A DNA stretch of 64,000 bases, from positions 1,054,001 through 1,118,000 of the forward strand of contig NZ_CP096659.1 in assembly GCF_023238205.1 (NCBI RefSeq), given 5' to 3'. The stretch's first letter is position 1. The number at the start of each line of letters is the position of its first letter. The position numbers were made by a program, and so were the translations under genes. The notes under the pieces were generated by a model. It was not told the origin of the DNA. It did not search any database and saw nothing but the letters and a program-made list of their open reading frames with translations. Shown piece after piece: positions 18,900-22,726 of this stretch. The stretch is from Halorussus limi (GTDB lineage: Archaea > Halobacteriota > Halobacteria > Halobacteriales > Haladaptataceae).

Positions 18900-20096
18900 T
18901 CAGTCGTCGCCGCGATTCAGTAGGTACCCTGCGGCTCCGGCGAGTCCGCCGAGCGTGGTGAGCACTCCAAAACCGGGTGCGCGTGCCCGTTGTGCTACCT
19001 CGCTCGCACCGATATCGTTCGCTGCCGTCGTCTGATTCCGCTCGGTGGTCCCCGGACTCAAGGTAGTCCTCCTGGTGGTTCGCGTCCTCGCTCCTCCGAG
19101 CGGTCGAACCGGTCCGCGCAACAGTCCATCGGGATACTGTTCGGTCTGTACCTCGACGTACACGTTGCCACTGCGTATCGCCTGGATCAGCGGGACGAGA
19201 GGCCGACCCTCGAACGGTCCCTCGAGATCGTAAGCCGTGAGTACGGCGTCTACTAGCGTTCCTTCGACGTGATCGACGGGGTTTGTCGTATCGAACAGTC
19301 GAGCCACGATTGGATCGTCTCGTCCCGGCCGGTTCAGACGGAGGTACGCCGCGGTCACGTCGTTGACGTTCTGCACGTACAGCGCGTACATGAGCTTCGC
19401 TCGGACACCGTTGGGCGGATGTAGCGTGAAGTAGGTCGTTCCCTTGGCGTCCGATTGTATCCCCTGTGCTGGCGCTAAACGGGCGATATACTTCTGGGGC
19501 CCTTCCCCGAGCGCCCCTTCCGGTGGTTGGGGAATTTGCTCGGTAGTCGTTCCGGGTCCCGCCGTGGTCGTCTGATTCTGGGTCGGGGTTGCGGTCGTCT
19601 GGTTCGAGGCGAGCTGGTTCTGCGTCGTCCCTTGGGCCCGGGTCGTCTGATTCTGTGCCGTCTGGGTCGTCTGTCCCCCACCGCCGAACTGGACCGGTCC
19701 CTGCATCGACGACGGATGGACCTGACAGAGATACTCCGCCATACTCTCCTTGGCCGTGAACGTCACCGTCTGGGAACCTTGACTGATGATCTCGGTTCGC
19801 ACCATCACGTCTCCGTTCTGACTGAGCACGGCGAAGTTGTGCGGGGCACCGTCGACGTTTTCCCACGTCACCTCGTACTTCTTCCCCGCTTCTAATCTCA
19901 ACGTCGGGTTGACCGCGTCCGCGATCGACTCCGGTCTGCGCCCTCGCCAACCGCTCGTGACACCACCGAGGGCGTACGACGTTGCGACCTGTTGGCGGCC
20001 GCGTGCGATGCCTCCGAGTCCGAAGACCGCTCCGGTCGTCGCCGTCGTCGAGAGGAACCGCCGCCGGGACGACCCTCCCGTCGAGTTATCTGCCAT
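18900..20096 (-). CDS. Tat-exported cupredoxin-CHRD domain protein with a C-terminal anchor
   Basis: A 398-residue protein. A Tat signal (SRRRFLSTTATTGAVFGLGG) leads into a type I copper cupredoxin with ligands His86 (APHNF), Cys124, His127 and Met131 (CQVHPSSM). Residues 140-195 are a Gln/Thr/Asn linker with several NQT sequons, typical of glycosylated surface linkers. Residues 198-325 form a CHRD domain (YIARLAPAQGIQSDAKGTTY...), also found in secreted bacterial proteins. A C-terminal hydrophobic stretch (APGFGVLTTLGGLAGAAGYLL) should anchor it. It sits 3 bp behind the PQQ gene. Codons such as GTA, GCA, CAA and GGA are unusually frequent for this window, suggesting transfer. It could accept electrons from the quinoprotein. 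Confidence 0.87.
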   Translation of the reverse strand: MADNSTGGSSRRRFLSTTATTGAVFGLGGIARGRQQVATSYALGGVTSGWRGRRPESIADAVNPTLRLEAGKKYEVTWENVDGAPHNFAVLSQNGDVMVRTEIISQGSQTVTFTAKESMAEYLCQVHPSSMQGPVQFGGGGQTTQTAQNQTTRAQGTTQNQLASNQTTATPTQNQTTTAGPGTTTEQIPQPPEGALGEGPQKYIARLAPAQGIQSDAKGTTYFTLHPPNGVRAKLMYALYVQNVNDVTAAYLRLNRPGRDDPIVARLFDTTNPVDHVEGTLVDAVLTAYDLEGPFEGRPLVPLIQAIRSGNVYVEVQTEQYPDGLLRGPVRPLGGARTRTTRRTTLSPGTTERNQTTAANDIGASEVAQRARAPGFGVLTTLGGLAGAAGYLLNRGDD

Positions 20097-20099
20097 GAA

Positions 20100-21797
20100 T
20101 TAGCCCTCCATCGAGTAGACCGCGATGACGTTCTGCTCGGTTCCACCGCCGCCTTGGATGTAGACGTACTGTTTCCCAGTCGTCGGGTCGACCCACGTGA
20201 CGGGATTTCCGTCGAGGCGGGGGATGATCTGTTCGGTCCACAGCCGGTCGCCCGTCTCGGAATCGTACGCGACGAGGTTCCCCGACGGCGTGCCGGCGAA
20301 GGTGAGGCCGGTCGTCGTCGAGAGCAGCCCGCCCCAGGGCGCTTCGTCCATCCAGTCCTGCCACTTTATCTTCCCGGTCACCGGGTCCAGCGCCGTGATG
20401 TTCCCCGGCGGTTTCTCCCACTCGGGAATCGAACCTTGCTGGTTGTCGCTGGCCGTGATGAACGTCTCGCCCTTGTACTCTTCGCCCATCTCGTAGTCGA
20501 TGTACGACCACGCCATCTTCATCGGCTGATTGTTCGCCTTCAGGAACAACGTCCGGCGCTGGGGATCGAACGACGAGGGCTGGGGGTCAGTCCCGCCGAG
20601 GAGGTGCGGAGCCGTCCACTCCGCATCCTCCATGTTCTGTGGCGGGATCGCCCAGGTGTTAATGTGTTCGACGTACTCCTCGCTTCGCTCGACGAGGTCG
20701 CCTGTTTCGAGGTCCACGGTGTACACCCATCCGGTCTTGCCGGGCCACGAGGCGAGCTTCCGCGTCTCGCCGTCCATCTCCGCTTCGTAGATGACCGCGG
20801 GGCTCGGCGAGTCGTAGTCCCACCAGTCGTGGGGCGACTCCTGATAGTTCCACTTCACATCGCCGCTGTGGAAGTCGACCGCCACCTTCCCGGCACTGTA
20901 GGGGTTCCACCCGGGTCGGACGGTGCCGAACCACGGGCCCGGATTTCCGGTCGGCAGCACCGTCGTCCCGGACTCGGGGTCGATAGCGGGAGCCTGCCAG
21001 ACGGTCGAACCACCGTGCTTCCACGCGTCGCCGACCCACTGGTCCGGCGGCGTCATCCCCGTGTGCCACGCTTGCTCGCCGTCGGTCGTGACGCCATCGG
21101 CCCACCCGTGGACGCCCCACTCGCCGCCACTGCTCCCCATGACGAACATGTCCTCGAAGGGGACGATGGGGTAGTTCGACGCCTGACTGCGGTTGCGCTT
21201 CCACGTCTGTAGCTCGTCGTGCATCGCCAACTGACGGGAGCCTTCGGCCGTTTCGCCCCGGTACTCGTAGGCTCCGTTGTAGTACCACTTTTCGGTCCCG
21301 TCGTAGCGGTTCAGCGCGAGTACGCCGTGGTCGAGCGTCGCCTTGTACACTGTGTCACCCAGAACGCCCACGCCGCGGTTAGCGGGCGGTTCGGATTCGC
21401 TCACGATTCCTTTGGGGTGGTACTGGTGGAACCAGAGAACCTCGCCGGTGCGGGCGTTGATCGCCCGCGTCTGTTCGGTGCCGTTCGTCTGATAGATAAT
21501 CGGGGGATCGCCGGGGATGACGAGCACCGAGCCTTGGAACCATGCGGCCTGCCTCGCGTTCTGGACGGTCTCGTGTTTCCACTCGAGCGAGAGATTCGAG
21601 ACGTTCTTCGGCGTGATGATGTCGGCAGTGCTGAAGTGGTGACGTTCGTAGTTGTTGCCGTACAGTAGCCACCCCTCCGGGTCGTCGCCGCTGTCGAGGA
21701 GTTGTTTCTGGGTCACCTCGCGCTTCGGAATGTCGTCGACGTTTTCGTACTGTTCGATTTCTGCAGTGCCTGGCTTGGGAATATGTCCGTCCTGCAT
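20100..21797 (-). CDS. PQQ-dependent dehydrogenase-like beta-propeller protein
   Basis: A 565-residue eight-bladed-propeller protein of the quinoprotein alcohol dehydrogenase family. Repeated tryptophan-docking motifs are seen (AINARTGEVLW, ALNRYDGTEKW, ALDPVTGKIKW, AYDSETGDRLW), as are the metal/PQQ regions TGNPGPW and DWWDYDSPSPAV. No cysteine occurs, so the vicinal disulfide that stacks on PQQ in methanol dehydrogenases is absent. It also lacks an export signal although the family acts outside the membrane; the preceding Tat protein may carry it. Start ATG 21797 is chosen because it follows the stop of that gene by 2 bp. The substrate is unknown and no pqq biosynthesis gene is in the window. 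Confidence 0.88.
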   Translation of the reverse strand: MQDGHIPKPGTAEIEQYENVDDIPKREVTQKQLLDSGDDPEGWLLYGNNYERHHFSTADIITPKNVSNLSLEWKHETVQNARQAAWFQGSVLVIPGDPPIIYQTNGTEQTRAINARTGEVLWFHQYHPKGIVSESEPPANRGVGVLGDTVYKATLDHGVLALNRYDGTEKWYYNGAYEYRGETAEGSRQLAMHDELQTWKRNRSQASNYPIVPFEDMFVMGSSGGEWGVHGWADGVTTDGEQAWHTGMTPPDQWVGDAWKHGGSTVWQAPAIDPESGTTVLPTGNPGPWFGTVRPGWNPYSAGKVAVDFHSGDVKWNYQESPHDWWDYDSPSPAVIYEAEMDGETRKLASWPGKTGWVYTVDLETGDLVERSEEYVEHINTWAIPPQNMEDAEWTAPHLLGGTDPQPSSFDPQRRTLFLKANNQPMKMAWSYIDYEMGEEYKGETFITASDNQQGSIPEWEKPPGNITALDPVTGKIKWQDWMDEAPWGGLLSTTTGLTFAGTPSGNLVAYDSETGDRLWTEQIIPRLDGNPVTWVDPTTGKQYVYIQGGGGTEQNVIAVYSMEG

Positions 21798-21799
21798 AG

Positions 21800-22726
21800 T
21801 CAGTCGCCTCCGAGTCGCGGCGCTCGCATGTCGTCGCTGATGCGGACGAGGTCGTACTGGAAGTCGGTCTGCGCGGCGATCATGATTGCCGCACTCCCGG
21901 ACACGAGCGCGGTCAGTTCCTCGTCGGAGATCTCCCCGCGACCGAGTCGGTCCGCGGCCGCGCTCAGGAGGTAGAACCCACCGAGCATTGCGCGGACGTC
22001 GGCGATGCCGTCGTCGAGCATCTCGTCGGTTATCAGCACCTCGTTCTTGCGGAGGTGCTTGTCTAACCCGTCTATCCAGAGGAGAGCGCCGCTCGCCGCC
22101 CGTTTCTGGAGCGGCGAGACGTAGTCGGGATTCACCTCTTCGACCGGCGCTTCCTCCAGCACCCACGTGGGTTCCCAGAGCGCGAGTCGGTCGGCCTGAC
22201 TGACCACGTTCGCGACCAGTGCCGTCTGTTCGCGCTCGTCGAACCCGACTTCAGAGAGAGTCCCCGCGAGCGACGCCGTGTGGACGAGCTGTTTCGTCAT
22301 GCGCTCGATGTGTTCGGACGTGAACCGCGGGAGGTTGGCTTCGGCGCTCGCGTAGAAGTCGACCTCGGTCAGGTGGTCGTCGATTCGCCACGCCGGAGTC
22401 GTCAGTTCCGCGTACAGTTCCTCGCCGCGGTCCGGAACGCCTGCGGCGCGTACCGCCGACAGGCCCTCTATCGCGTCGGCGACGCCCGTCATCTCCGTCG
22501 CCAGTAGTTCGGCGTCGAGTGCGCCGGAGAGGTCGTTTCGGATGGCCTCCCCGCGGCGAGCGAACTCGCCCGCCGACTCGACGGCGACGAGGTCCTGCAG
22601 GTCGCTCAGTGTCACGTCGTCGACGGCCGAACCGCCGGTCGCGGCGGCACTGGCCACGCCGAGTACCTTGAGGAACTCCCGACGATCCTCGTCCGATATC
22701 TGTGAGTAGTGGTGTTCTCCTGGCAT
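21800..22726 (-). CDS. Tat-signal helical protein of unknown function, partner of the PQQ protein
   Basis: A 308-residue protein. Residues 12-35 are a twin-arginine signal (EDRREFLKVLGVASAAATGG). The remainder is predominantly helical, acidic and cysteine-free, with an amphipathic C-terminal half (LLSAAADRLGRGEISDEELTALV). I recognise no domain. Similar two-gene arrangements in bacteria pair a folded cofactor protein with a small Tat partner that gives it the signal, so this could be a structural or electron-transfer subunit. It starts the three-gene operon that continues with the PQQ protein and the cupredoxin-CHRD protein; gaps are 2 and 3 bp. Confidence 0.75.
   Translation of the reverse strand: MPGEHHYSQISDEDRREFLKVLGVASAAATGGSAVDDVTLSDLQDLVAVESAGEFARRGEAIRNDLSGALDAELLATEMTGVADAIEGLSAVRAAGVPDRGEELYAELTTPAWRIDDHLTEVDFYASAEANLPRFTSEHIERMTKQLVHTASLAGTLSEVGFDEREQTALVANVVSQADRLALWEPTWVLEEAPVEEVNPDYVSPLQKRAASGALLWIDGLDKHLRKNEVLITDEMLDDGIADVRAMLGGFYLLSAAADRLGRGEISDEELTALVSGSAAIMIAAQTDFQYDLVRISDDMRAPRLGGD

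Follow-up and report, generated by a model that had tools for sequence, protein, structure and literature searches.

Gene organization of the locus

The window, a stretch of 64,000 nucleotides from the Halorussus limi genome, carries three minus-strand open reading frames between positions 22726 and 18900, arranged in the order helper, propeller, cupredoxin-CHRD:

21800..22726, minus strand: helper protein, 308 aa, all-helical, with an N-terminal Tat-type motif; obligate partner of the propeller
20100..21797, minus strand: quinoprotein (PQQ-type) 8-bladed propeller, 565 aa, ATG start, without signal peptide and without cysteine
18900..20096, minus strand: cupredoxin-CHRD surface protein, 398 aa, Tat-signalled

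The intergenic gaps are 2 bp (helper/propeller) and 3 bp (propeller/cupredoxin-CHRD), which agrees with the tight spacing given in the original prediction. For each of the three genes, dN between species is far lower than dS, indicating that they are real genes and not chance ORFs.

The propeller

The propeller matches PF01011 with an E value of 8.9e-46 and passes the Pfam gathering score (157.2 versus 26.7 bits). Its best NCBIfam match is TIGR03075 (PQQ-dependent dehydrogenase, methanol/ethanol family), where its 292.1 bits fall below the curated cut-off of 480; the match to TIGR04528 (acido-empty-quinoprotein group A) is likewise below cut-off (205.5 versus 650 bits). The closest solved structure is the lanthanide-dependent alcohol dehydrogenase PedH, top of 964 aligned chains (Z 38.3, 2.6 A over 492 residues), with XoxF, MxaF and quinohemoproteins just behind (Z 33-37), and PedH is also matched by profile (E 1e-70). 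Against the solved quinoproteins listed, Z was 33-38 with mostly 485-499 of the 565 residues aligned, confirming the 8-bladed fold; the structure model is weak at the active-site loops. Residues aligned with the active site are:

21120..21122, minus strand: Glu226, metal ligand by alignment (PedH Glu199)
20943..20945, minus strand: Asn285, metal ligand by alignment (PedH Asn281)
20811..20819, minus strand: Asp327-Tyr-Asp329, in which Asp327 is the catalytic residue and Asp329 the additional Asp of the lanthanide signature (PedH Asp323/Asp325)
20736..20738, minus strand: Lys354, replacing the PQQ-facing Arg of XoxF/PedH; Lys in 96/96 relatives

All 96 haloarchaeal propellers have R141, D327, D329 and K354, 95 of them keep N285 and W267, and 93 have E or D at position 226; the N285 exception is due to a frameshift in the L149 propeller. 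The vicinal Cys-Cys of methanol dehydrogenases (MxaF/XoxF) is missing from the window propeller, which has 0 Cys. The original prediction had called this a PQQ-type propeller and named loss of the metal and PQQ residues in a structure alignment as the finding that would speak against it. These residues are present, and by fold and residues the protein is of the quinoprotein alcohol-dehydrogenase type, with PQQ binding and activity predicted from sequence. No signal peptide was found on the window protein, as had been noted before, or on any of the 96 haloarchaeal relatives.

The helper protein

22667..22684, minus strand: RREFLK twin-arginine motif, helper residues 15-20

The TAT_signal match of the helper is weak (E 0.0036), and 12 of 18 homologues also match. 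Profile searches gave no Pfam family, sequence searches gave no PDB match, and Foldseek found no clear fold match (best E 0.22); the best VIA Z score, 6.3, is a value that helical bundles are expected to give. This protein represents a new family, entirely helical, previously unnamed and annotated as "hypothetical protein".

Among 292 haloarchaeal genomes the helper occurs in 51 and the propeller in 50; all 50 propeller-bearing genomes have a helper, and the one surplus helper is fragmentary. It lies directly upstream of the propeller: in 96 of 98 unique pairs the helper stop codon and the propeller ATG are -10 to +26 nt apart. This invariable pairing bears out the earlier proposal of a Tat-signalled helper as the propeller's partner. 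The RREFLK motif of the window helper, the absence of a signal from every propeller (0/96) and the 50/50 co-occurrence form a Tat hitch-hiker pattern.

Copper partners

20058..20066, minus strand: RRR (residues 11-13) in the cupredoxin protein's Tat signal
19839..19841, minus strand: His86, type-1 copper ligand
19704..19727, minus strand: Cys124, His127 and Met131, the other type-1 copper ligands
19482..19685, minus strand: Thr/Asn-rich linker with N-x-T sequons, from sequence
19110..19481, minus strand: CHRD domain (PF07452, E 2.3e-12)
18903..18983, minus strand: PGF-CTERM-like tail (PGFG, hydrophobic stretch, basic end)

The copper ligands, glycosylatable linker, CHRD domain and membrane anchor described in the original prediction are all seen, and the H. 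limi genome encodes archaeosortase A. The His-Cys-His-Met set of a type-1 cupredoxin is complete (H86, C124, H127, M131), with the domain scoring 21.1 bits against a Copper-bind gathering score of 21.2; CHRD passes its own (48.3 versus 24.1 bits). The joining of cupredoxin and CHRD, which had been singled out as unusual, is real but found at only three Halorussus loci (the window, L004 and L148). We rejected CHRD as a core component; it is a Halorussus-specific addition.

The synteny search suggested earlier found helper and propeller always paired, and 59 of the 98 pairs have a cupredoxin that is either fused or no more than 6.5 kb away. Nearly all separate cupredoxin partners have Tat signals. 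In seven members of one clade (support 100), which is also present in the H. limi genome, the cupredoxin is fused to the N-terminus of the propeller; all seven fusions have the H-C-H-M ligands and no signal peptide, and their helpers carry Tat. Copper cupredoxins function outside the cytoplasm, and we know of no earlier cupredoxin-quinoprotein fusion. Signal-less propellers, a signal-less fused cupredoxin beside a Tat-bearing helper, and Tat signals on the separate cupredoxins together support export by the helper and a copper acceptor. No cupredoxin lies within 6.5 kb of fifteen Tat-bearing loci, among them the second paralogue of the H. limi genome.

Proposed function

We consider it fairly probable (about 0.62) that this gene set specifies a respiratory enzyme of the cell surface, a dehydrogenase of the quinoprotein alcohol-dehydrogenase type, exported by its helper and passing electrons to the copper protein. 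The signal-less propeller would fold before export, in a cytoplasmic complex with the helical helper, whose twin-arginine signal would then take both proteins, already folded, out through the Tat pore. Outside, below the S-layer, the propeller would hold PQQ and a metal (Glu226/Asn285/Asp327/Asp329) and oxidise an alcohol or aldehyde. PQQ would be acquired from the surroundings, since the H. limi genome has no canonical synthesis genes. As adjacency and fusion suggest, single electrons would pass to the type-1 copper of the membrane-held, halocyanin-like cupredoxin, and from there would reach a terminal oxidase without going through menaquinone or complex III. The surface dehydrogenase-to-copper path of the original prediction gains support from the cupredoxins that adjoin the pair at most loci and from the fusions of one clade; its export and activity stay predictions. 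That prediction did not include the D-x-D signature, the missing PQQ synthesis genes, the fusion paralogue or the helper Tat losses.

We counted the following against our explanation: the absence of PQQ synthesis genes, the missed TIGR03075 cut-off, the lack of Cys-Cys, the change of the PQQ-facing Arg to Lys, the occurrence of D-x-D in Ca/Mg enzymes, the Tat losses, the 15 Tat loci without cupredoxin, and the weak model of the active-site loops.

Comparison with known systems

PedH/ExaF of Pseudomonas putida (6ZCW) shares with the propeller the 8-bladed fold, the Glu/Asn/Asp/Asp metal site and the Trp under PQQ. At 27% identity to it, the propeller differs in lacking Cys-Cys, in having Lys for Arg, in having no signal peptide of its own, in being paired with a helper that would export it, in its likely copper rather than cytochrome c acceptor, and in a host without PQQ synthesis genes. 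XoxF-type methanol dehydrogenases have the D-Y-D metal motif in common with the propeller (31% identity to the Sinorhizobium pSymB XoxF control). The propeller has no adjoining XoxG/XoxJ partners. Type II quinohemoprotein alcohol dehydrogenases (e.g. 1KB0) resemble the haloarchaeal fusion clade in joining propeller and acceptor domain, although theirs is a C-terminal cytochrome c and that of the fusions an N-terminal cupredoxin; at the window locus the acceptor is a separate gene. Halocyanin, an electron carrier, is like the window cupredoxin a haloarchaeal type-1 copper protein, Tat-signalled and membrane-held; the window protein differs in being joined to CHRD, in its place in a dehydrogenase operon and in having relatives fused to the dehydrogenase. 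Halocyanin serves haloarchaea as a one-electron carrier in place of cytochrome c (PMC8305020).

PQQ-type dehydrogenases of marine heterotrophic Thaumarchaeota are likewise archaeal; as described in the part of the source used here, some have D-Y-D, all lack Cys-Cys, and blue copper proteins have been proposed as their acceptors (PMC7300363). Unlike haloarchaea these organisms encode PQQ synthase, and that part of the source describes neither a helper nor a copper fusion for them (PMC7300363).

The metal

The D-x-D rare-earth signature is present in the window propeller (D327-Y-D329), and we regard the metal as probably a lanthanide. It is somewhat unlikely that the propeller is instead an active surface quinoprotein using Ca2+ or Mg2+, with no rare-earth meaning in the second Asp. 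Both ions are abundant in hypersaline brine, and Lys354 in place of Arg resembles membrane glucose dehydrogenase. Characterised enzymes of that kind have D-x-D with Ca, Mg, Zn or Sr as metal, the E. coli type accepting Ca, Mg and others (PMC11996626), so D-x-D alone is no proof of lanthanide use. Against the Ca2+ or Mg2+ reading, both Asp residues are invariant in the 96 relatives, PedH is nearest in both sequence and structure, and structures of XoxF and PedH show the lanthanide bound by this additional Asp (PMC11845868).

PQQ supply

Looking for PQQ genes elsewhere, as suggested earlier, found no synthesis genes: PqqC was detected in 0/292 haloarchaeal genomes (positive control pSymB, 428 bits), and H. 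limi has only remote PqqB- and PqqE-like matches. We rejected the PqqE-like matches (131 and 69 bits; cut-off 381) as being at the general radical-SAM/SPASM level, which 14/14 control genomes also reach, and the PqqB-like match (41.9 bits; cut-off 245) as being at the metallo-beta-lactamase-fold level. The literature searched contained nothing specific on haloarchaeal PQQ or lanthanide dehydrogenases.

Missing PqqC means that PQQ is scavenged, made otherwise, or not used. An "empty" quinoprotein without PQQ, having a binding or scaffold role or another cofactor, would fit these searches, the missing vicinal disulfide and the 205 bits to the acido-empty-quinoprotein model, though that score is under cut-off. 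We think it improbable, given that selection has kept R141, W267, N285, D327, D329 and K354 almost without exception across distant clades, that fusion to a redox-active copper domain is sensible only for an electron-transfer enzyme, and that many quinoprotein-bearing bacteria scavenge PQQ (PMC12124388).

Loss of the helper Tat signal

Tat was scored as RR plus an uncharged stretch, because searching for RR alone also picked up false positives (L012, L088, L106, L108, L109, L116, L140); the borderline L094 was hand-scored as Tat-less. By this measure the motif has been lost, with the body kept, in 43 of 96 loci through two losses on the tree. Nineteen of the 43 keep an adjoining cupredoxin, so a helper-borne Tat signal cannot be the sole route. 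One Tat-less lineage, of single origin, has ferredoxin neighbours in place of cupredoxin and also adjoins a tungsten aldehyde oxidoreductase and a CDC48-type ATPase. Helper Tat and neighbour type are strongly clustered on the tree; with only two losses and a single ferredoxin-neighbour origin, independent-pairs tests are powerless and we do not call the correlation significant.

These losses and the ferredoxin clade would suit a cytoplasmic helper and propeller, with the helper a chaperone, its RR not a working Tat signal and the cupredoxin an incidental neighbour, but this is rather improbable because the fusion clade places a signal-less type-1 copper domain in the propeller chain beside Tat-signalled helpers, and every propeller lacks its own signal, which is what a carried partner should show. 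We know of no cytoplasmic PQQ enzyme.

Building on the surface dehydrogenase, we suggest very tentatively, and regard as unlikely in full, that rare-earth quinoprotein respiration has a branch of its own in haloarchaea, with scavenged PQQ, a helical escort that decides location, a copper acceptor and fusions. One descendant lineage might have lost the escort's Tat signal and the copper partner, its enzyme moving into the cytoplasm beside ferredoxin and aldehyde:ferredoxin oxidoreductase.

Significance

If the surface dehydrogenase is real, quinoprotein and probably rare-earth metabolism would reach haloarchaea, bringing with it a still unnamed family of obligate partners and an electron route through copper, a cupredoxin-quinoprotein fusion included. 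As PQQ synthesis was found in none of the 292 genomes searched, PQQ would become a testable shared nutrient in brines. The route of electrons to halocyanin in species without bc1 has been called unresolved (PMC8305020, PMC3403918); the system would provide direct, complex-III-independent electron entry into halocyanin.

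Gene organization and conservation

The three genes occupy one strand of the window:

22726-21800, minus strand, ORF, helper gene
21797-20100, minus strand, ORF, propeller gene
20096-18900, minus strand, ORF, cupredoxin-CHRD gene

The gaps between them are 2 bp (helper-propeller) and 3 bp (propeller-cupredoxin-CHRD). Because the flanking genes encode an HD-domain phosphohydrolase (downstream) and, on the opposite strand, an alpha/beta hydrolase (upstream), the trio looks like a self-contained operon. The three-gene arrangement of the original prediction recurs in Halorussus aquaticus XZYJ18 (L004), with protein identities of 96-99%, and in interspecies comparison dN is well under dS for all three genes. 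Between the window and locus L148, representing two Halorussus species, dS is 0.21 for the helper (21800-22726), 0.70 for the propeller and 1.10 for the cupredoxin-CHRD gene, an inequality that suggests recombination across the operon.

The propeller and its predicted metal site

The propeller matches Pfam PF01011 with 157 bits and falls below the NCBIfam subfamily cut-off (292 bits, 480 needed). Its AlphaFold model (pTM 0.85, mean pLDDT 76, some active-site loops weak) aligns best with the lanthanide-dependent enzyme PedH (Z 38.3, 2.6 A, 492 residues, 27% identity), with other alcohol and methanol dehydrogenases close behind. In a profile alignment, propeller residues Glu226, Asn285, Asp327 and Asp329 correspond to Glu199, Asn281, Asp323 and Asp325 of PedH, whose metal ligands are listed in PMC11845868, whereas in the calcium-type enzyme MxaF the last Asp is replaced by Ala. 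Across 96 haloarchaeal propellers R141, D327, D329 and K354 never vary; N285 and W267 are each present in 95, and 83 have Glu and 10 have Asp at position 226. The metal and PQQ residues on which the quinoprotein reading depended are thus present and conserved. Unlike the bacterial quinoprotein family, the propeller contains zero cysteine and has Lys for the PQQ-facing Arg. Since D-x-D, which published work takes to indicate lanthanide use, also occurs in classical membrane glucose dehydrogenases (PMC11996626), we grade the predicted lanthanide dependence as likely and no firmer.

A search for PqqC that did recover it in the positive control, Sinorhizobium pSymB, found none in 292 haloarchaeal genomes, 50 of them with a propeller, and PqqB- and PqqE-like matches in the source genome were at superfamily level only. 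PQQ scavenging is common among bacteria with quinoproteins (PMC12124388), and a propeller outside the membrane could acquire PQQ with no need for import.

The helper and probable export

The helper, entered as "hypothetical protein" in public records, gave no domain match, no PDB sequence relative and no clear fold match; its model is all-helical (pTM 0.87). It occurs in 51 of the 292 genomes and the propeller in 50, the surplus one being a fragmentary helper, and in 96 of 98 unique pairs the helper stop lies -10 to +26 nt from the propeller start. Only 8 of 72,556 plasmid records encode it, all haloarchaeal. The helper is an obligate partner of the propeller, either subunit or chaperone.

None of 96 haloarchaeal propellers has a signal peptide, and at 53 of 96 loci the helper carries RRxFLK together with an uncharged stretch. 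The strongest argument for helper-borne export comes from a clade of seven paralogous loci (support 100), one in the source genome (C1:2687834). Their propellers carry an N-terminal cupredoxin domain that retains the full set of four copper ligands. These fusions lack a signal peptide and their helpers have a clear Tat motif. Because one would not expect a type-1 copper domain to function in the cytoplasm, the helper most likely carries its folded partner out of the cell. The source-genome fusion (G000:C1:2687834-2689387; L003, L084:5334-7433) is a single chain with its own Tat-signalled helper upstream, and is followed by a putative membrane-protein gene and by one for a Tat-signalled NMT1/THI5-like binding protein.

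On the tree the helper Tat motif was lost twice. In one Tat-loss clade of 4 loci and another of 15, a cupredoxin gene with its own Tat signal adjoins the pair, mostly directly downstream, and its product might do the carrying there. Where tandem cupredoxins directly follow Tat-less pairs (L106, L108, L109, L111, L112, L116 and others), the first domain retains the copper ligands and the second has lost them (H-D-Q).

Candidate electron acceptors

A cupredoxin is fused or within 6.5 kb in 59 of 98 helper-propeller pairs; 15 Tat-bearing loci, including the second paralogue of the source genome, have none nearby. Of 539 plasmid records matching the fusion protein, only one reaches 80% coverage, as two adjacent ORFs, and since it is haloarchaeal, no fusion was seen in bacterial plasmids among these records. 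Further features of the window cupredoxin protein are a T/N-rich linker, a CHRD domain (confined to three Halorussus loci) and a PGFG tail; its L095 equivalent scores above the PGF-CTERM cut-off, and the source genome encodes archaeosortase A. In haloarchaea the copper protein halocyanin stands in for cytochrome c (PMC8305020).

Many cupredoxin-type loci (L095, L100, L108, L111, L112, L117-L120, L122, L134, L144) have a formate dehydrogenase-type molybdopterin oxidoreductase some 1-3 kb away, a hint of one-carbon compound or aldehyde oxidation. Annotated sodium:calcium antiporters adjoin quinoprotein loci L163 and L165, on plasmids of Natrinema and Halomarina.

In a further clade, of 24 loci, the helper is Tat-less and cupredoxin is absent; in 21 of these a halophilic 2Fe-2S ferredoxin is encoded within 6.5 kb. 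Pairs of this ferredoxin-neighbour clade are L085-L090, L098, L121, L124-L139 and L160. Many of the 24 also neighbour a CDC48-type ATPase, a methyltransferase and a tungsten aldehyde:ferredoxin oxidoreductase. Cupredoxin and ferredoxin neighbours were never seen together at one helper-propeller locus; on the tree the ferredoxin type arose only once and therefore counts as one event, not a statistic. The propeller active-site residues are retained here too, and the clade is a candidate lineage without export, whose enzymes may be cytoplasmic. Because electron transfer from PQQ to ferredoxin would be uphill in redox potential, the ferredoxin may work with the neighbouring oxidoreductase rather than with the propeller. 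A protein of about 260 aa (L095:6315-7091, minus strand, and relatives) with RRPEYTGENRCLPC, a hydrophobic stretch, CxxC motifs and no Pfam match recurs near pairs of both the cupredoxin and ferredoxin groups.

Relation to known systems

The literature searched gave no earlier description of a haloarchaeal quinoprotein-helper-copper system. The closest archaeal precedent in it is the quinoproteins of marine Thaumarchaeota (PMC7300363), for which blue copper proteins are proposed as possible acceptors and which, unlike the haloarchaeal system, are accompanied by a PQQ synthase. The system is probably a haloarchaeal quinoprotein dehydrogenase of predicted rare-earth type. Its obligate helper, in most cases Tat-signalled, represents a new family, and a copper protein is the putative acceptor.
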